Shown here in pieces: positions 972 to 10,264 of a stretch of DNA of 46,493 nt. Origin of the DNA: Sphingobacterium thalpophilum (GTDB lineage: Bacteria > Bacteroidota > Bacteroidia > Sphingobacteriales > Sphingobacteriaceae). Location of the stretch: positions 1 through 46,493 of the forward strand of contig CAMCTU010000006.1 of NCBI GenBank assembly GCA_945878525.1, written 5' to 3'. The position numbers and the translations under genes are program-made. Under the pieces are notes generated by a model. That model had not been told where the DNA came from, searched no databases, and saw only the letters and a program-made list of their open reading frames with translations. Numbering within the stretch: the first letter of the stretch is position 1; every line of letters begins with the position of its first letter.

Positions 972-3338
972 TCATTTAAGTGTTTTTTCAAATAACTTTA
1001 ATATCCGTTTATACTCGTCAGTCCAGCTCGATGACTCTGAAAATGCATGATCTTCAACAGGATAGACTGCAAGCTCCCAGTTCTCCTTTTTTAGTTCAAT
1101 TAGCCTTTGTGAAAGTCGTACGATATCCTGAAAATGAACATTCACATCTACCATTCCATGTGCCATCAACAGATTACCCTTTAATCCATTTGCAAAATAG
1201 ATCGGAGAACTTCTTTTATAAGCAATTTCATCATTGGCCGGTTCATTCAGGATATTTGCAGTATATCCATGATTGTAATGTGCCCAATCAGTTACTGAAC
1301 GCAGGGCAGCCCCCGATTTAAATACATTCGGTTCAGTGAATAAACCCATTAATGTCATGAATCCTCCATAAGAGCCTCCATAAATACCTACATTTTTAGG
1401 ATTGACATTATATTTTTCAATGAGTAATTTAACGCCATCTACCTGGTCAGACAGGTCTTTTCCACCCATATGACGGTAAATTCCGGTTCTATGATCCCGC
1501 CCATAGCCTGAACTTGCAGTATAATCGATGTCTATGACCGTATATCCCAAATCAGCAAGGAGGTTATTGAACATGTATTCCCTGAAATACTGGCTCCACC
1601 AATGATGTACATTCTGAAGGTAACCTGCACCATGGACAAATACTACTGCCGGTTTGGACGGAGCTGGTTTTTTTGGTTTGTAAACCCGTGCATATACATC
1701 TGAACCATAACGGTTTTTAAAACTAATTACTTCAGGTTCTCTCCATGTATAAGATTCGAATTCGGTACTGCCAGAGTTGGTGATCTTCTCTGCTTTAGCC
1801 CCTGCTTTATTCTCCTGCAGATATAATTCCCATGGTTTGTTTGATCTGGAATGACGGAACGCGAGCCATTTTTCATCCGGAGACAGACTGACTTCATTGC
1901 CTCCTTTCATGGAGGTGAGTTTTACAAAGCTTCCACCAACAACTGGGATCCGATAAAAATGTGTGATACCCGGATGCTCAATATTGGCGGTGAAATAAAA
2001 ATTTTTCTTATCGTTGGATAACTGAAGAGTCTGGACTTCATATTTTCCTATTGTGATTTGTTTTTTATCACCGGTAATTACATTGTGAACGTAAATATGA
2101 GAATAACCACTGGCTTCGCTTTGATAATAGATCGTAGTATTGTCAATCCATCCGATATTGCTTCCGCCAAAGAAACCACCTACCCCCGGGCCACCAATCC
2201 AGGCTTCATCCCGCTGCCTGTCAAGAGGTGATAACTTGCCGTTTTCGAGATTGAGCTTCATGATCCAGCGGTCTTTGTTATCCAGTGCAGAAACACTTAC
2301 TACTGCCGAAGAGCCATCATAATTCCAGAATGGGCCATTGATTGATACCTTACGGTCTTCATTTTTCTTTGTTCTTTCTTCCAGCTGTTTCGGATAATCC
2401 TTTACATAATCTGGTAGATCCTTAACTCCCGGAATATCTTTTGTAGAAATAGCATAAATCGTGTCCCTCTGTATGTCATAGAGATAACTTTCATAGTCGG
2501 GTAAAGCATTACCAACTTTCGTGCGACCGCTGATATCTTCAGTGTATCCGCTTGTGCTGATGTAGTTTGGAACAATGGTGTTTTTATTTCCATCTGCACG
2601 TTTCATAATCCGAAAGGCGATAAACTTTTCATCCGGACTAATTCGCAAACTGTTCATAAAACTACGATCGTCCAGGTAGAATTCTTTCGGAACTTTTGGC
2701 TCATTCGCTTTATTTTTTGCCTCCTGCTCTTTTCGGTCAGACTCCCTTTTTTTGATGATCTCAAATTCATTGATCTGATCCTGCCTAAGCCACTGATCCT
2801 GTTTTGATAATAGGTTTTCAGGCCTCTTTTTGGTACGGGTAAAATTACTTAGCTGTACCAGTTGTCCACCGTTTATGGAAATGCTGTAAAGGTTATCTCC
2901 GCGCTGAAACAGTACTTTACTTTCATTTTTGTCAAACACTGGGTTAGCTTCCCGTTCAAGGGTACTGGTTAGTGCCTGTTCTTCACCGGTGCTAATCGAT
3001 TTGATAAATAAGTCTCCTTTGCGCTCAAAAAGCACTTTTGTCCGGTCTTTTGTAAAAATGACTGCTCCTTTATCCAGATTTTTTGTTACTTCTTCGGATA
3101 ATTTTACTGGTTTAGGCATATCTGTAGAAATCCTGAACATAAGATCTTCCTCCAGCTTTTCAGGATTCCAGTTAAAATAGATGTTTTTGCTGTTCTCATC
3201 CCACTGGATGTTAGAAGGAGATACACCCATCCATTTCGGATCCCGCATAATTTTTTCCACGCTGAGGTTTCCAAGGTTCTGAGCAAAAGAGGCTAATGGT
3301 GTAATCAGAAAAAGGCAAAACAGGATTCTTTTCTTCAT
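972..3338 (-). CDS. S9 family peptidase (prolyl oligopeptidase / DPP-IV type), secreted
   Basis: A 788-residue serine exopeptidase expected to act in the periplasm or outside the cell on oligopeptides, often releasing dipeptides from N-termini. A signal peptide ends at about residue 20 (LASFAQ). Residues 25-540 look like the WD40/beta-propeller part, with repeated segments such as SPDEKWLAF. The C-terminal alpha/beta hydrolase domain has the catalytic triad: Ser656 in YGGSYGG, Asp731 in HGMVDVNVH and His764 in EDHAF, with the same spacing as in DPP-IV. The gene is last in a minus-strand block of secreted peptidases, 16 bp after the small unknown gene, and is followed by a terminator. Exact cleavage preference cannot be read from sequence. 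Confidence 0.93.
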   Translation of the reverse strand: MKKRILFCLFLITPLASFAQNLGNLSVEKIMRDPKWMGVSPSNIQWDENSKNIYFNWNPEKLEEDLMFRISTDMPKPVKLSEEVTKNLDKGAVIFTKDRTKVLFERKGDLFIKSISTGEEQALTSTLEREANPVFDKNESKVLFQRGDNLYSISINGGQLVQLSNFTRTKKRPENLLSKQDQWLRQDQINEFEIIKKRESDRKEQEAKNKANEPKVPKEFYLDDRSFMNSLRISPDEKFIAFRIMKRADGNKNTIVPNYISTSGYTEDISGRTKVGNALPDYESYLYDIQRDTIYAISTKDIPGVKDLPDYVKDYPKQLEERTKKNEDRKVSINGPFWNYDGSSAVVSVSALDNKDRWIMKLNLENGKLSPLDRQRDEAWIGGPGVGGFFGGSNIGWIDNTTIYYQSEASGYSHIYVHNVITGDKKQITIGKYEVQTLQLSNDKKNFYFTANIEHPGITHFYRIPVVGGSFVKLTSMKGGNEVSLSPDEKWLAFRHSRSNKPWELYLQENKAGAKAEKITNSGSTEFESYTWREPEVISFKNRYGSDVYARVYKPKKPAPSKPAVVFVHGAGYLQNVHHWWSQYFREYMFNNLLADLGYTVIDIDYTASSGYGRDHRTGIYRHMGGKDLSDQVDGVKLLIEKYNVNPKNVGIYGGSYGGFMTLMGLFTEPNVFKSGAALRSVTDWAHYNHGYTANILNEPANDEIAYKRSSPIYFANGLKGNLLMAHGMVDVNVHFQDIVRLSQRLIELKKENWELAVYPVEDHAFSESSSWTDEYKRILKLFEKTLK

Positions 3339-3354
3339 ATTTTCTTCAAATAAA

Positions 3355-3897
3355 TTATTTACTATTTAACTCTAAATTGAATTCTGCTTTAAATCGAAGC
3401 TCTTTATTACGCTCAAGAATGTAATAAAACTTCTTTTTATCATCACTGAACTCCATGATCCAACGGTTTGTTTTGGCTGCTAGAATTAAATTTGAGGTAA
3501 ACTCATCCGCAGGAAAGTATTGTATTAATCTGTTGCTGATTTTTTGATCAGAATCCCCTCCATAGTTAGTGATGCTATCAGGGCTGCCATCTGTATGACG
3601 ATGATCATGCTTCAGACGGATTCCACCCTTCGTTTTTTTGAGTACCCAGGTGCGGGTTTGGTTTTCACCAACATTAAAAGGGAGTTTCAACTTAGATTTA
3701 TTACTTCCATTGACCTTGAAGCTCAATTTTTTGCCCCAAAAATCATTTGCTTTTGTAGTATCTGGCATATATATCGCCTTGCCATAATAGGTTTTTCCTT
3801 CCAGAGAGCGAATTGCATCAAAAAATTCCTTGTCGCCTTGGCCGAATAAAAACTCGCTAAACAGAAGCAGACTTTCTGTGATGAAAATTATTTTCAT
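3355..3897 (-). CDS. Small secreted protein of unknown function within the peptidase block
   Basis: A 180-residue protein with a short hydrophobic leader ending near FLFGQ (residue 20). I do not recognise a named family. It has a conserved-looking centre, RLKHDHRHTDGSPD (about residues 94-107), followed by NYGGDSDQ and, later, YFPADEFTSNL and NRWIMEF, which reads like a compact beta-rich domain. The histidine/aspartate cluster could bind a metal, but this is inference. It starts 2 bp before the stop-side neighbour M14 gene ends and lies 16 bp before the S9 gene, so it is almost certainly cotranscribed with the peptidases. It might assist folding or inhibit one of them; nothing in the sequence proves this. 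Confidence 0.75.
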   Translation of the reverse strand: MKIIFITESLLLFSEFLFGQGDKEFFDAIRSLEGKTYYGKAIYMPDTTKANDFWGKKLSFKVNGSNKSKLKLPFNVGENQTRTWVLKKTKGGIRLKHDHRHTDGSPDSITNYGGDSDQKISNRLIQYFPADEFTSNLILAAKTNRWIMEFSDDKKKFYYILERNKELRFKAEFNLELNSK

Positions 3898-3899
3898 GC

Positions 3900-5636
3900 T
3901 TATTTTGTTCGACTTGCAATTCCACCTTTTTTGCTGTCGACGTTCACCTGGTATTTATCCCCGTTCTGGATGATCCATCTGACTGTAACAGTCCCATTTC
4001 CCGGAATATTGGGTACTTTGATGTTTTCAGGATCATTCTTTTGCTCCATGGTAATATTCAAATCACGATTACTCACGATCATGCCGGCTATTACTTTTGC
4101 ACCCTTTAGACTAACCAAATCCGGAACTTCAATTTTGTATTTCAGATCCTGGCTTGAATGTGTTGGCATCAGACGCTTATTGGCAATAACAGCAGTTACT
4201 TCCTTTAAACCGGCACCGAGATCTTTTTCTGAAATTTCTTCAACTGAAAGTTTTGGGGTATGATAAGCATGATATAAGGTAAAAGCCATATTGCGGTGTG
4301 CATCGCTTTCAAGCAAAAAACCGGGATGCAGACGACCAAATGATTTCTTAAATCCACCAATCTCTATATCACCGTATTGAGGGTGTTTAAATGCTTTCCA
4401 GTTAACAAAAGCATCATTAAAAAGCAAATTCCGGTCGAAAGAGTATTGTTCAGATTGGGAGTTTCTGTCGGCAGGTTTATTATATAACAGAAACTGTGTC
4501 CAAAGCTCATTTGAGAACGTATAAATACCCCTTCCGCCATAAAACCAGTCTAGTTCCCCGCCAAAAACAGAGTAAAGATCTTTGTATACAACCAGGTATT
4601 TATATCCCGGAATCAGTTCCTCGCCTTTTTTACCAAGGGCATCATAAACCTGAACATCCTGAGCATTGTAGGTATTTAGGTCTTCTAGTGCGCCAGGTCC
4701 ACGAAGTATCATTCCCCCATTATTATGATAGGACTGACCTGCTGCAATATTGGGATGCTTCATTACAAATTCAGAAATTGAACGATTTTCAGGCAATGAA
4801 AATGGATATTTATAAGCGCCGCTTTGTATGTAATTTGGCTGCCAGTTCCATGCCCAGTCCCGGTTTGGATCATAAAATCCTTCTCCATCTTCATTTACAT
4901 CCCCATCTCCATCATTATCAATACCTTCATAACCCAGAAGTTCATATTCGCCCTGCTGATCAACACCTACACTAATCATTCGTCTTGGATCTTCAGGATC
5001 AGGCTTTAAACGGCCATTTGGATTTTTCCTGCGCATGAAAACAATATGTCCGTCTCCATCAAGGTCATCAAAGCCATCTTCATTTATTTCTCCGTCGCGG
5101 TCATTGTCTACCGGAATCATACCAGAACGCGGAGAATTTGCATTATTTGCCTTGTGAATAAAATTGTCTCTTGCATCAGGATTGATGGTTGGTGCGATGT
5201 AAAAGGTTTTATCCTCCAATAAGTTCTGGATATGTTTGGTATCTGCAAAAGATTCAGCAAGATACCATGCCGTGTAGAGTGCGAATTCACTCCCTTGTAT
5301 TTCATTTGAGTGAATGTTCCCGTCAATATACATCGCAGGTTTTCTTCCCGGATCACCCTTCTTGAAATCAGAAATTGTCATCACCCACATTTCTTTTCCA
5401 AGGTGTGATTTCCCCATCGATTCAAGTTTTACTAGGTCAGGATAAGCTTTTGCTAGCTTTTTACAGATCTCAGAAATCGCGGCATAGTCATTATATCGGT
5501 TCCAGCTTACGGCTACTTTTGGGTTTGCCGGACTTCCAGAGGCTTTTAGGAATTGCTCTACCTGCTGTGCCTGCGAAGTAGTTGCCATTACAAATAATGA
5601 AATGGTAAAAAATATTTTCTTTAAGAATGCTTTCAT
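3900..5636 (-). CDS. M14 family zinc carboxypeptidase with calcium-loop inserts, secreted
   Basis: A 578-residue metallocarboxypeptidase with a signal peptide (residues 1-24, ending TTSQAQ). The active site is complete: zinc ligands His109 and Glu112 (DGNIHSNE), third ligand His304 (SYHNNGG), substrate-binding Asn258-Arg259 (DPNRDW), an earlier Arg156, and catalytic Glu377 (FSNELW). The distance between Glu112 and His304 is longer than in classical carboxypeptidase A because of an insert with Asp-rich loops (about 177-188, 190-197 and 240-251, DxDxDG pattern) resembling EF-hand or thrombospondin-type-3 calcium loops. It likely trims C-terminal residues from peptides outside the cytoplasm. It lies 36 bp after an inactive paralogue with the same layout and 2 bp before the small unknown gene. 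Confidence 0.93.
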   Translation of the reverse strand: MKAFLKKIFFTISLFVMATTSQAQQVEQFLKASGSPANPKVAVSWNRYNDYAAISEICKKLAKAYPDLVKLESMGKSHLGKEMWVMTISDFKKGDPGRKPAMYIDGNIHSNEIQGSEFALYTAWYLAESFADTKHIQNLLEDKTFYIAPTINPDARDNFIHKANNANSPRSGMIPVDNDRDGEINEDGFDDLDGDGHIVFMRRKNPNGRLKPDPEDPRRMISVGVDQQGEYELLGYEGIDNDGDGDVNEDGEGFYDPNRDWAWNWQPNYIQSGAYKYPFSLPENRSISEFVMKHPNIAAGQSYHNNGGMILRGPGALEDLNTYNAQDVQVYDALGKKGEELIPGYKYLVVYKDLYSVFGGELDWFYGGRGIYTFSNELWTQFLLYNKPADRNSQSEQYSFDRNLLFNDAFVNWKAFKHPQYGDIEIGGFKKSFGRLHPGFLLESDAHRNMAFTLYHAYHTPKLSVEEISEKDLGAGLKEVTAVIANKRLMPTHSSQDLKYKIEVPDLVSLKGAKVIAGMIVSNRDLNITMEQKNDPENIKVPNIPGNGTVTVRWIIQNGDKYQVNVDSKKGGIASRTK

Positions 5637-5672
5637 CTTTTTTAATTTAATTTTTCAAAACAAGTCCTGAGA

Positions 5673-7316
5673 TTATAATGAAACTTCGACTGTTTTTGTC
5701 CCGCTCATCGGACTCCCGACATTGATTGTCAGCTTACCTGAACCTTTGATCAGCCAGGAAATAGTTTGGTTTCCCTGACCCTGAATTGCATCAATTGTTT
5801 GATTTTTTCGGCCACTGATGATGGTCTGATTCAACTCCGGAATTAGTTTGACCGAGAGTTTCTTTACCCAGTAGCTTCGTTCGCCTACTTTTGTCTGGGT
5901 AGCTAAATTTCCTCTATTTATAATTCTGACGGTAACTCTATTCAGGTCATTACCCAGTTTCTCTTTTTTTATGTTTATGATATCTATTGAAGGAGTAAGC
6001 TTACTCAGCGCAATGATAAAGTCGCTGTGCTTCTTTACCAGATCCGAAACCAGTTTAAATGGTGGATTTTTTAATACAAATGGATCAACTCCACCAAGTT
6101 CAACTACTTGTCCCGGAAAATCAGGATGTTCAATTTTTTTCCATTCTGTAAAATTGTTTGTCAGTCCCTGGCTGTCTGCCCAGCGGAGGTAATTAGCCGT
6201 CGGATCTTCAATTTTCAGTTCCTTCACTTTTTTTGCCGTATCAGCTTTTGCTTTTGGCACCCACCAGCCCGGAGTACTGAAACTATTACGGCCGTAATGG
6301 AAATAGGCCCATTGAGCAAAATCGCCGCCTTCTGATTCATTTTTTGGAGCATCTTTAAGTCCGAGGGTTTTGTTATAAAGTTCAGAAACCAGTGAATTTG
6401 CCTTTGCATCAGCTTCAAAATAGCCGGTAATAATACGTTTTGAAACAGCCTGTTGATTAAAAGTAGCAGGTACAGAGAGGTTGTTATAAGGACCGAATGT
6501 TATAACTGAATGAATGTTAAACATCTCAAACAGGTTATCGAGTAAAGTACGGTTTTCAATTTCTGATACCATATGCTCTCCCGATCCAGGAACAAAATTC
6601 GGATAGTCATAGCTCATGTTTTTATTAAAATGAACTCCACCTTCAGCATCTTCATTATAATTCCCATCCTTATCGTTGTCTAAACCTTCAGAAAAAAGCA
6701 GGTATTTACCGCTTTCGCCTTTGGCTGGATCGGCTAGAATCATGGAGCGGGGTTCCTCAGGATTGATACGATATTTACCTGTCGGGTCTTCTATCCTGAT
6801 CCAGCTTATTTTACCATCCTTATTTAGATCATCAAACCCATCTTCATTAATTTTACCATCGCGGTCGTCATCTGTAGCTTTTGCGTTTCCACTTTTTGCA
6901 TAGCGAATCTGGGCGAAGTATTGTTCGGTTGCATCCGGACTCATGTTCGGAAACACATAAAAGGTATTTTTCTCAAGAATATTTCTTATGCTGTCCTGGG
7001 AGGAATCTTTGAGTATTTTTTCTGCAAACCCTAAGGCCAGTTCGGTACCTAAGAGGTGCGAACCTTCAACACCCCCAACAATTGCTATGGCAGGTTTTTG
7101 TTCGATCTTACCACTACCAATGCTTAGCATCCAAATGTCCTTTCCGCCAATTGTTTTAACAAGTGATTTAGCTTCTAACAGCGATGGATAGGATTTAATA
7201 AGGGAGTTTATCCGCTCAGAAACTTTGGAGTTATTGCTATAATCCTGGGCATATAGTTCTCCAAAAATTAAAAAAATCCCCGTTAGCAAAACTGAGGCTT
7301 TGTAAATATTATTCAT
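5673..7316 (-). CDS. M14 carboxypeptidase-like protein without an active site (probable pseudoenzyme), secreted
   Basis: A 547-residue paralogue of the downstream M14 enzyme, with a signal peptide ending at residue 24 (LYAQ) and the same Asp-rich calcium-type loops (about 149-160, 162-169, 212-223). Aligning it by eye with the neighbour shows that the key positions are replaced: the HxxE zinc motif is ExxH (Glu84, His87), the third zinc histidine is Tyr277 (GPYNN), the Arg of NPDAR is Thr (SPDAT), the Asn-Arg pair is Asn231-Lys232, and the catalytic Glu is Pro (FSTPGW). The frame is uninterrupted and full length, so the gene seems maintained rather than decaying. It may bind peptides or regulate its active partner. 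Fold is confident; lack of carboxypeptidase activity is strongly inferred. Confidence 0.88.
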   Translation of the reverse strand: MNNIYKASVLLTGIFLIFGELYAQDYSNNSKVSERINSLIKSYPSLLEAKSLVKTIGGKDIWMLSIGSGKIEQKPAIAIVGGVEGSHLLGTELALGFAEKILKDSSQDSIRNILEKNTFYVFPNMSPDATEQYFAQIRYAKSGNAKATDDDRDGKINEDGFDDLNKDGKISWIRIEDPTGKYRINPEEPRSMILADPAKGESGKYLLFSEGLDNDKDGNYNEDAEGGVHFNKNMSYDYPNFVPGSGEHMVSEIENRTLLDNLFEMFNIHSVITFGPYNNLSVPATFNQQAVSKRIITGYFEADAKANSLVSELYNKTLGLKDAPKNESEGGDFAQWAYFHYGRNSFSTPGWWVPKAKADTAKKVKELKIEDPTANYLRWADSQGLTNNFTEWKKIEHPDFPGQVVELGGVDPFVLKNPPFKLVSDLVKKHSDFIIALSKLTPSIDIINIKKEKLGNDLNRVTVRIINRGNLATQTKVGERSYWVKKLSVKLIPELNQTIISGRKNQTIDAIQGQGNQTISWLIKGSGKLTINVGSPMSGTKTVEVSL

Positions 7317-7397: not shown

Positions 7398-10112
7398 CTA
7401 TTTTGAATAACCATAAAGCTGATTGAAAAGCAATTTAAATGTCCCATGGGTTTGAGCCCTGAATGTAATTTCAGGACCAAAAGCATAGAATTTACCTTTT
7501 CCAACCTGCGCTTCGAATGCGGTAATGCCATCTCTTAAATAGGCCTGACCCCATGCCCAGCCACTTCGCAGCGGGGTAGGATTTGAAAACCATAAAATGG
7601 GCTTAATATTTCCATTCGCAATGGCTTCAGTAGATATTTTGAACACCGGACTTCTATCAAAATAGAGATCTGATTTTGCAGGCATTCCCCAGGCTGCAGG
7701 AATTTTATTGTCAGTATCAGCACTCAATATACTTCCGGGAATATAGTATTTTTCGGCAGGCAGGCTTCGTTCTAAACCGTTTGTACCCAGTTCTACCATG
7801 GCATTCCTGACAGGCAGATTTAGGTGATAGCCAAGGTTCGTGCTACTTCCAATGCTCAAAATCTTCCCGCCCAGTTCTAAGAATTTTTTTAATTCAGGAA
7901 TTGATTTGTCAGCATTAATTCTGCCTAATTGTCCTCTAAATTCTGATGGAATTGACTCAGGATCAGGGCCTGTGTTTAAAGAGCTCCTTCTCGCTGCTCC
8001 TCCGGATAATGCAGGAATTGCTCCGGGGACAAATATCAGCACATCGTATTTTTCATTCAAATTTCCAGCTTCAATATCCTTCGCATAAATCAATGAAGCC
8101 TTAAAATTAAATTGTTCCATTAATAAGCGCACCCATCCAGACGACATAGAACCGCCATAAGTATCCCATAATCCTATGCGTAATTCTGAAAGTCTGGTCA
8201 AATTTTCCGGGGCTGCAGCGCTTTTTCTTATTTCCAGTCCTGCTTCATTTTTTACTTTATTCAGTAAATTTTTTGTTTTTGGATTTCCTGGGATATAGAA
8301 ATCCCCTGTATTGTCTCCTGAACTTATTCTGTAAACTCTTTCTCCTGATTTTAAAACTTCATTGACAGCAATATATGCATTGTTAGACTCTGCATTAATG
8401 AGGTAAGCTTTTGATGATGTCAGTAATTCGGGTTCGGGTCTTTGAAGTTCTCCGTATTTAATTCGCTGAAATGGGCCAGTGAAATCATCCTGAAGCCGGT
8501 CAAATTGCACATGCATCATATAAGCGAGCGTCCAGCCGGCAGCATCGTATGGAGCAACAGGAGGGCCACCTTCAAATTTAAAATCATTGGGATGATCCTG
8601 TGGTTCAAACATATCCAGTACATGTGGTCTGAACGCCTGATTTGTTTTTATAATGTAGGAACCTTTGGGGTATTTTTTTCTTGCCACATTGAATTCATCA
8701 GTTGCCTGATGTACCAGTATACCTGAACGGATCAAAGCATTTACAAACTTTACAGCAGTCTGAAAATCAGCTTGATCTGATGGAATAATATATCCCCTGG
8801 CATCCCGGTTGGCGGGGTTATTCATAACGGTATCAAAATACTTTTTTGGCAGGATCTGCTGATTTGAAATTTTTGCTCCGGGCTGATCCTTAAGGTATGC
8901 CTGATTGATGGCTTCCACTTTATTTGGAGAAAGTCCCCAGGTATCTTTACTTCCGCGCTCAATGGAATTTTTACCCATCCGGTAAATATTGAACAGTAGT
9001 TCATCGCGATAACGCACGGCATAATTCAGAACCGCATAGTTTAATGAAACCGAGTAATCTATAGACTGGCGGAAATGCCATTTTTGTGGGGTTACTGGAA
9101 AGGTTGTTCCCCCATTTGGAATCAGCCGTTGTGGAACCAGGGATATCTCTGATGGTGTTGGTCCTCCAATAGTTTCTGTAAGCAGTCCGATAATATTGTG
9201 AAAGTAAGTAGTAGTACGTAGTCCGCCGTTATACCATGTTGAGAACACAGAACCATATTTTTGGGTATAACCCGGTTTATTTTCAACATTAAGTCTTGAG
9301 TTCATGGCTGCGCCAACTGCATCTAAGCTGGACATCAGGATTGGGTCAAAAACATAATTGAATGGATCACGATAGGGTGCGCCTGCAACCACGGAACCTT
9401 CGGGGCCTCTTTGGTGGTGGTTATACATGATCTGAGGTAGCCATTCAACAAATAATTGCCTGCTCATATTTTGGGTTTCCTTCAGATTCATCATGAAAAA
9501 GTCGCGGTTATTATCATGGCCAGCGTATTTCTCATATAAACGCGGCAAATTTTCAAGTGAACGGTTTTCAGGTATTTCTTGACGCATGTACCAGTTGCTG
9601 ACCAATTCATGACCATCTGGATTAGCATGTGTCAATAAAATAATTGTGTTATCAAGTATGCGCATGGTTTCTGCATCTTTTCGGCTCAACAGATTCCATA
9701 AGGTTTCGATAAGCTGATGAATGCCCAGTGTTTCATTTGAATGCAATCCACCATCAATCCATACAATGGCTTTCCCTTTTTCTGAGAGTAGCCGCGCCTC
9801 AGCTTCAGATAAATTTTCTGCCCTGGCCAGTTTTTGGGAGATTTCTTTGTATTGCTCCAGATTTTTAAGGTTTTCAGGAGAAGAAACGATCAGCATGGGT
9901 TGTGTTCTTCCTTCTTCAGTCAAACCTATACTCATAAGTTTTACCCGATCAGATTGTTCGGATATCTTTTTGAAATACTCAGCCGTCTGGGTAAAATTGG
10001 CTAATTGATAATCATCCCCGATGGTGAAACCAAAATGTTCTTTTGGGGATATCTGTGCAAATAAATTATTGAGCAGAAAAATGCCGGCTACTAGCAGAAA
10101 AAATTTACGCAT
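7398..10112 (-). CDS. M14 family zinc carboxypeptidase with C-terminal glutaminase-like domain, secreted
   Basis: I place the start at the ATG at 10110-10112, because it begins a clear signal peptide (MRKFFLLVAGIFLLNNLFAQ); an in-frame ATG 96 bp upstream adds residues that do not look like part of it. The 904-residue protein has an M14 domain with zinc ligands His124 and Glu127 (GGLHSNE), a third ligand in NHH (His232/His233), and catalytic Glu313 (LLTETIG). From about residue 645 a flavodoxin-like segment begins (LRIGLWDTYGG), followed by DVLIFVPGA and LGGKILSIG, resembling the class I glutamine-amidotransferase-like tail of large M14 proteins. It is the first gene of the peptidase block, 81 bp before the pseudoenzyme gene. 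Confidence 0.9.
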   Translation of the reverse strand: MRKFFLLVAGIFLLNNLFAQISPKEHFGFTIGDDYQLANFTQTAEYFKKISEQSDRVKLMSIGLTEEGRTQPMLIVSSPENLKNLEQYKEISQKLARAENLSEAEARLLSEKGKAIVWIDGGLHSNETLGIHQLIETLWNLLSRKDAETMRILDNTIILLTHANPDGHELVSNWYMRQEIPENRSLENLPRLYEKYAGHDNNRDFFMMNLKETQNMSRQLFVEWLPQIMYNHHQRGPEGSVVAGAPYRDPFNYVFDPILMSSLDAVGAAMNSRLNVENKPGYTQKYGSVFSTWYNGGLRTTTYFHNIIGLLTETIGGPTPSEISLVPQRLIPNGGTTFPVTPQKWHFRQSIDYSVSLNYAVLNYAVRYRDELLFNIYRMGKNSIERGSKDTWGLSPNKVEAINQAYLKDQPGAKISNQQILPKKYFDTVMNNPANRDARGYIIPSDQADFQTAVKFVNALIRSGILVHQATDEFNVARKKYPKGSYIIKTNQAFRPHVLDMFEPQDHPNDFKFEGGPPVAPYDAAGWTLAYMMHVQFDRLQDDFTGPFQRIKYGELQRPEPELLTSSKAYLINAESNNAYIAVNEVLKSGERVYRISSGDNTGDFYIPGNPKTKNLLNKVKNEAGLEIRKSAAAPENLTRLSELRIGLWDTYGGSMSSGWVRLLMEQFNFKASLIYAKDIEAGNLNEKYDVLIFVPGAIPALSGGAARRSSLNTGPDPESIPSEFRGQLGRINADKSIPELKKFLELGGKILSIGSSTNLGYHLNLPVRNAMVELGTNGLERSLPAEKYYIPGSILSADTDNKIPAAWGMPAKSDLYFDRSPVFKISTEAIANGNIKPILWFSNPTPLRSGWAWGQAYLRDGITAFEAQVGKGKFYAFGPEITFRAQTHGTFKLLFNQLYGYSK

Positions 10113-10264
10113 AAAATTGGTTTGAATAGGCAAGGTAAGAGTTATGCCAATACGAACAAACTCAGTTATTCTGAAATTTTTATTAGGTATCTTGTGAAAA
10201 TGAACCATTTTTCAGTTGGGACTAAATTAACGTGTAATCGACATAATATTTTATAAACCACATA

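Follow-up and report, generated by a model that had tools for sequence, protein, structure and literature searches.

An M14 pseudopeptidase without zinc ligands is co-retained with its live sister gene across bacterial families

The gene pair and its surroundings

The window (the whole analysed stretch of 46,493 nucleotides) carries two neighbouring genes for proteins of the M14 carboxypeptidase family, both on the minus strand, as are all features of the window described below. The upstream gene, referred to here as dead, is an open, unbroken frame of 547 amino acids (5673..7316). It encodes a leader, the whole of an M14 carboxypeptidase fold, which contains a calcium-loop insert, and a beta-rich domain at the C-terminus. 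The downstream gene, the live sister (3900..5636, 578 amino acids), has the zinc ligands His109, Glu112 and His304, the catalytic Glu377, Arg156, the Asn258-Arg259 pair and Tyr355. From the dead stop codon to the live start codon there are 36 bp (5637..5672), both genes are in one frame, and the two proteins share 29% identity over 554 alignment columns. A preliminary description of this DNA had proposed a full-length M14 pseudoenzyme beside its active sister, and this is the arrangement we find, with the site of the sister intact.

Assignment of the dead protein to M14 was supported both by profile and by structure. The Pfam M14 profile (PF00246) matched it with 55.9 bits, against a curated cut-off of 21.6 and 131 bits for the live sister; M14 was the sole Pfam domain found, and the same profile matched all 39 aligned members. 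Neither the dead protein nor any of the 38 orthologues aligned with it matched an NCBIfam family. For the dead protein alone, AlphaFold2 predicts the fold of a full M14 domain (mean pLDDT 90.8, pTM 0.89). The best PDB structural match of this model was carboxypeptidase T (Z 31.1 over 290 residues, rmsd 2.7), all structural matches listed were M14 carboxypeptidases, and by sequence the live sister, too, matched carboxypeptidase T best among PDB entries. Membership of M16B, marked by an M16 fold with the HxxEH motif in one subunit, was considered and rejected, since Pfam gives M14 alone and the listed structural matches are all M14 carboxypeptidases.

The signal peptide is evident from the sequence of residues 1-23 (7248..7316), and a hydrophobic N-terminus was present in 30 of 32 dead orthologues. 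The calcium-loop insert is retained nearly residue for residue in the dead and live clades. Its first loop, of the DxDxDG type (residues 149-168, 6813..6872), keeps its acidic positions in both clades, and the second (residues 213-223, 6648..6680) is likewise conserved in both. Altogether eleven acidic residues (D149, D151, D153, E158, D159, D163, D213, D215, D217, E222 and D223) are common to the dead protein and its sister and conserved in both clades. Calcium loops and leader are kept, as first described.

In the window the pair lies within a same-strand run of genes that includes other peptidase genes. A third M14 protein of 936 amino acids (7398-10208) is encoded directly upstream of the pair in Daejeonella; it also occurs in L019, L021 and L028, and in other families it does not adjoin the pair. 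Behind the live gene an S9-type peptidase (788 amino acids) and a 180-amino-acid protein, the latter without a Pfam match, are packed at 2-16 bp (972-3897); these likely belong to a peptidase gene cluster of the window's genus. Counts of promoters and terminators were no better than those from shuffles.

Loss of the active site and selection on the dead gene

In carboxypeptidase A, where the roles of the active-site residues are established, His69, Glu72 and His196 are the zinc ligands, Glu270 is catalytic, and the Asn144-Arg145 pair holds the C-terminal carboxylate of the substrate. Equivalents of carboxypeptidase A residues were numbered by alignment; the Tyr248 equivalent, which is Tyr355 in the sister, and the specificity loop were placed by matching to the carboxypeptidase A sequence. 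None of the three zinc ligands of the sister survives in the dead protein, and neither do its catalytic Glu or its equivalents of Arg127 and Tyr248. Zinc His109 is replaced by Glu84, zinc Glu112 by His87, Arg156 by Thr130, Arg259 by Lys232 and the catalytic Glu377 by Pro349, and the position of Tyr355 is lost. The loss is universal: none of the three zinc ligands was kept in any of the 32 dead orthologues, whereas all three and the catalytic Glu were present in 35 of 35 live sisters.

The residues that took their place differ in how well they are conserved. The zinc motif HxxE is replaced by Glu84-Gly-Ser-His87 (codons at 7056..7067), and among the 32 dead proteins His never occurs at position 84, nor Glu at position 87. 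Position 84 is E in 22, D in 5, K in 3, A in 1 and R in 1, and position 87 is H in 17, the rest having Y, Q, L, I, D, R or S. In the third-ligand region, Gly275-Pro276-Tyr277 (6486..6494), the zinc His304 of the sister aligns with Gly275, and this column holds G in 22, S in 8, T in 1 and E in 1, never His. Arg is absent in all 32 from the position of Thr130 (6927..6929), which corresponds to Arg127. The carboxylate anchor, by comparison, survives in altered form as Asn231-Lys232 (6621..6626), with Asn in 27 and Lys or Arg in 30 of the 32. At the former catalytic site the segment Ser345-Trp352 (SFSTPGWW, 6261..6284) forms a signature of the dead clade, in which Pro349 was found in 26 of 32 proteins and Glu in none. 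Other conserved residues are likewise specific to this clade, e.g. Tyr338, His340, Trp351 and Arg460.

Most of the substitutions had been read from the single sequence already, and those to Glu84, His87, Thr130, Lys232 and Pro349 are borne out by the alignment with the sister. The list was incomplete, as it lacked the loss of the Tyr248 equivalent, and it placed the third zinc His at Tyr277, which the alignments do not support; Tyr277 comes to this position only if a two-residue gap is shifted. The proposed exchange of HxxE for ExxH is literally present in the window's protein. As a conserved or meaningful swap it did not hold up when homologues were aligned, the check that had been suggested for it, because H87 is found in only 17 and E84 in 22 of the 32 dead proteins.

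Purifying selection acts strongly on the dead gene, though for the most part a little less so than on its sister. In Daejeonella, pairwise dN/dS was 0.06-0.10 for the dead gene and 0.025-0.084 for the live gene. Amino-acid changes in the dead protein outnumber those in its sister by a factor of 1.3-3.4, and its sequence is thus less tightly held. By fold and residue loss the dead protein is an M14 pseudopeptidase retained by selection, and judged from its residues it is presumably inactive as a peptidase.

The tree separates dead from live proteins as two clades, each with 97% SH-aLRT support against an archaeal outgroup and with broadly matching inner branching; in a wider tree the support for the dead clade was 84%. 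These trees are quick searches without bootstrap in which some dead branches are long, and the second of the two omits two long-branched dead rows. Two haloarchaeal homologues from a plasmid of Halomontanus rarus (L176:5980-7614 and L177:5010-6671) served as the outgroup; both are unpaired and full-length, and their active-site motifs are intact. By parsimony, a single duplication and a single loss of the site would have been followed by long retention of the two copies together.

Co-retention and gene order across genomes

Among the genomes searched, orthologues were found in 15 families of the same phylum, in Daejeonella, Hufsiella, Segetibacter, Ferruginibacter and Cyclobacteriaceae among others. 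Co-occurrence was scored in two overlapping samples, one at class level and one at phylum level, of 395 genomes each. In the class sample 13 genomes had the live clade and the same 13 had the dead one, with none having one alone. In the phylum sample the live clade was present in 37 genomes and the dead partner in 36 of these; in the exception (G528) the contig ends just upstream of the live gene. Dead and live genes therefore co-occur in every evaluable genome of both samples. Within the window's genus both genes were present in 7 of 20 genomes and neither in the other 13.

Two of the 36 dead partners are incomplete, one split into two frames (G514) and one cut by a contig end (G701). The two frames of the split gene (L108:6233-7863) overlap and are followed by two live copies, and the split reflects either an assembly error or a real break. 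In G701, a live-clade member with Leu for the third zinc His (SQLYLNTGG, L109:508-2229) lies beside a second, intact live copy; its sequence makes a second, recent loss of the site possible. A further M14 relative in G274 (L151:1270-3183) keeps HSGE, without the Arg after NPDG and with no obvious third His, and is perhaps another, unpaired pseudopeptidase line, to judge by these residues. In G044 an M14 domain with Asp for the first zinc His is joined to an apparent 2-hydroxyacid dehydrogenase domain (L010:1-1659), at a contig start and possibly through misassembly.

The two genes are normally adjacent. Wherever they are linked the dead gene precedes the live one; over 35 linked pairs the gap has a median of 11 bp, and three pairs overlap by 4 bp. 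The same dead-first arrangement was seen in a deeper subfamily (G491, G669, G496 and G650). One of these genomes, G496, has two separate dead-live pairs, one of the main and one of the deeper subfamily (C1:187538-190898 and C3:95144-98838). In three genomes (G211, G316 and G576) the dead and live genes are on different contigs, and because the flank beside each gene lacks the other, the pair is unlinked there and yet both members are kept. Comparison of flanks revealed no neighbour beyond the pair that was common across families, hence no wider conserved operon. No plasmid carrying the pair was found, and no natural dead-live fusion was present among the frames matched in either sample, the longest of which had 781 amino acids.

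Proposed role of the dead protein and alternatives

Retention of the dead gene beside its live sister in at least 15 families suggests that the live enzyme needs the dead protein as a partner. We consider it rather probable that it is a secreted, zinc-free M14 pseudopeptidase which arose by one ancient duplication, was kept together with the live sister and serves as its non-catalytic partner. The window alone had prompted the proposal that selection maintains a non-catalytic protein in connection with the sister; it now has strong support from the purifying selection on the dead gene, its single origin, the loss of the site in every orthologue examined and the co-occurrence of the two genes, whose adjacency is conserved. 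In such a course of events an ancient duplication of a live M14 carboxypeptidase would have produced the dead copy, normally the first gene of a two-gene unit, and the dead protein, with both proteins putatively secreted, would work, either in the periplasm or extracellularly, together with its sister. There it could stabilise or shape the live enzyme, regulate it, or hold substrate peptides by their C-termini for the sister.

Adjacent genes can be co-inherited without their products forming a complex. Since the dead and live genes share a frame, we could fold the pair with AlphaFold2 as a single read-through chain of 1138 residues, using 14 paired and 33 unpaired alignment rows. The resulting pTM was 0.78, for one linked chain rather than a multimer prediction and without a negative control. 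As two well-folded halves with no defined arrangement would give about 0.5, estimated from the pTM formula, the model appears to see a preferred dead-live arrangement. Much of residues 867-958, the region of the live pocket, had low pLDDT. We take the model as a hint of a physical complex.

A similar division of labour has been described in another peptidase family. In the M16B heterodimers TTHA1264/TTHA1265 and SPH2681/SPH2682, a subunit without the zinc motif and a live subunit are encoded by neighbouring genes (PMC12731061), and TTHA1264 is inactive without its partner (PMC12731061). As in these pairs and in mitochondrial processing peptidase, a zinc-motif-free and a live member of one peptidase family are found together here, and as in the bacterial M16B pairs the genes are adjacent and co-retained. 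The M16 proteins differ in fold, family and reaction, being clam-shell endopeptidases, and their complex is proven whereas that of the M14 pair is inferred. By analogy, the dead-live M14 pair may work like an M16B pair. We tentatively go one step further, in a reading that we hold at somewhat under even chances: the pair would be an obligate heterodimeric metallocarboxypeptidase in Bacteroidota and relatives, with the M14 pseudopeptidase as a required regulatory or substrate-presenting subunit, perhaps anchoring peptide C-termini via Asn-Lys/Arg, and so an M14 counterpart, independently arisen, of the M16B alpha/beta arrangement.

Possibly the dead protein is instead a free capture protein that binds peptides or glycans and feeds the sister without a stable complex. 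The retained Asn-Lys/Arg carboxylate anchor, the conservation of the SFSTPGWW loop where the catalytic site used to be, the leader, and the location in the window among other peptidase genes on one strand would all suit such a function. Capture alone explains neither the strict tie to one live clade, which holds even where the genes are unlinked, nor the pTM of the pair model, and the protein no longer has equivalents of Arg127 and Tyr248. We regard this alternative as unlikely. Still less probable is a neofunctionalised enzyme, in which the former pocket would have a different, non-zinc activity in the same pathway as the sister. The conserved loop and dead-only residues such as Tyr338, His340, Trp351 and Arg460 could be read in this way, but there is no recognisable new catalytic set, the old-site residues differ between families, and such an enzyme would not predict the strict tie to the live sister.

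A zinc enzyme with an altered ligand set is very unlikely. Glu84 and His87 could, as far as their side chains go, bind a metal in the window's own protein, or other residues might do so, but orthologues vary freely at these positions (K, R or A at 84; L, I, Y, Q or S at 87), too much for ligands, the third ligand aligns with Gly275 and is never His, and the catalytic Glu is gone. A zinc site rebuilt from Glu84 and His87, raised at the outset as a way in which the pseudoenzyme proposal might fail, is thus not what the homologues indicate, and neither is the random decay raised alongside it, as the loss of the site is universal and under purifying selection. A decaying pseudogene or chance relic of duplication, which the lost site and the faster evolution of the dead gene might bring to mind, is rejected by the full-length open frame, dN/dS of 0.06-0.10 and orthologues in 15 families that are all dead in the same way and form one clade.

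Besides the M16B pairs, the nearest precedent for the non-catalytic partner that we favour is domain III of carboxypeptidase D. It is an animal M14 pseudopeptidase domain that has lost nearly all active-site residues and lies beside live M14 domains (PMC11266112); it is proposed to bind proteins or present substrates, and its absence lowers viability in Drosophila (PMC11266112). Here too a dead M14 fold accompanies a live one. Domain III is the third domain of one animal polypeptide (with H69/A72/D196), whereas the dead protein is the product of a separate bacterial gene, has the calcium-loop insert and carries other substitutions. AEBP1/ACLP, CPXM1, CPXM2 and Ecm14 are eukaryotic secreted M14 pseudopeptidases without activity (PMC11266112), and resemble the dead protein in having an M14 fold predicted here to be secreted and inactive. 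They differ in keeping most zinc ligands, in having discoidin or pro-domains and in forming no gene unit with a live sister. Carboxypeptidase T of Thermoactinomyces vulgaris is a live single enzyme with 18% identity, lacking this insert and the C-terminal domain. No bacterial M14 pseudopeptidase or dead-live M14 pair was described in the literature searched, but most subscription journals lay outside that search, which makes its negative outcome a weak argument for novelty.

Those M14 pseudopeptidases that the literature reviews are eukaryotic, and little is known of their mode of action. The compact, ancient and strictly co-retained bacterial pair would offer a simple system in which to measure what a dead carboxypeptidase does beside its live sister. 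Our results also imply that, in the genomes that carry the pair, many of the proteins whose sole match is to zinc carboxypeptidases are unlikely to be enzymes.
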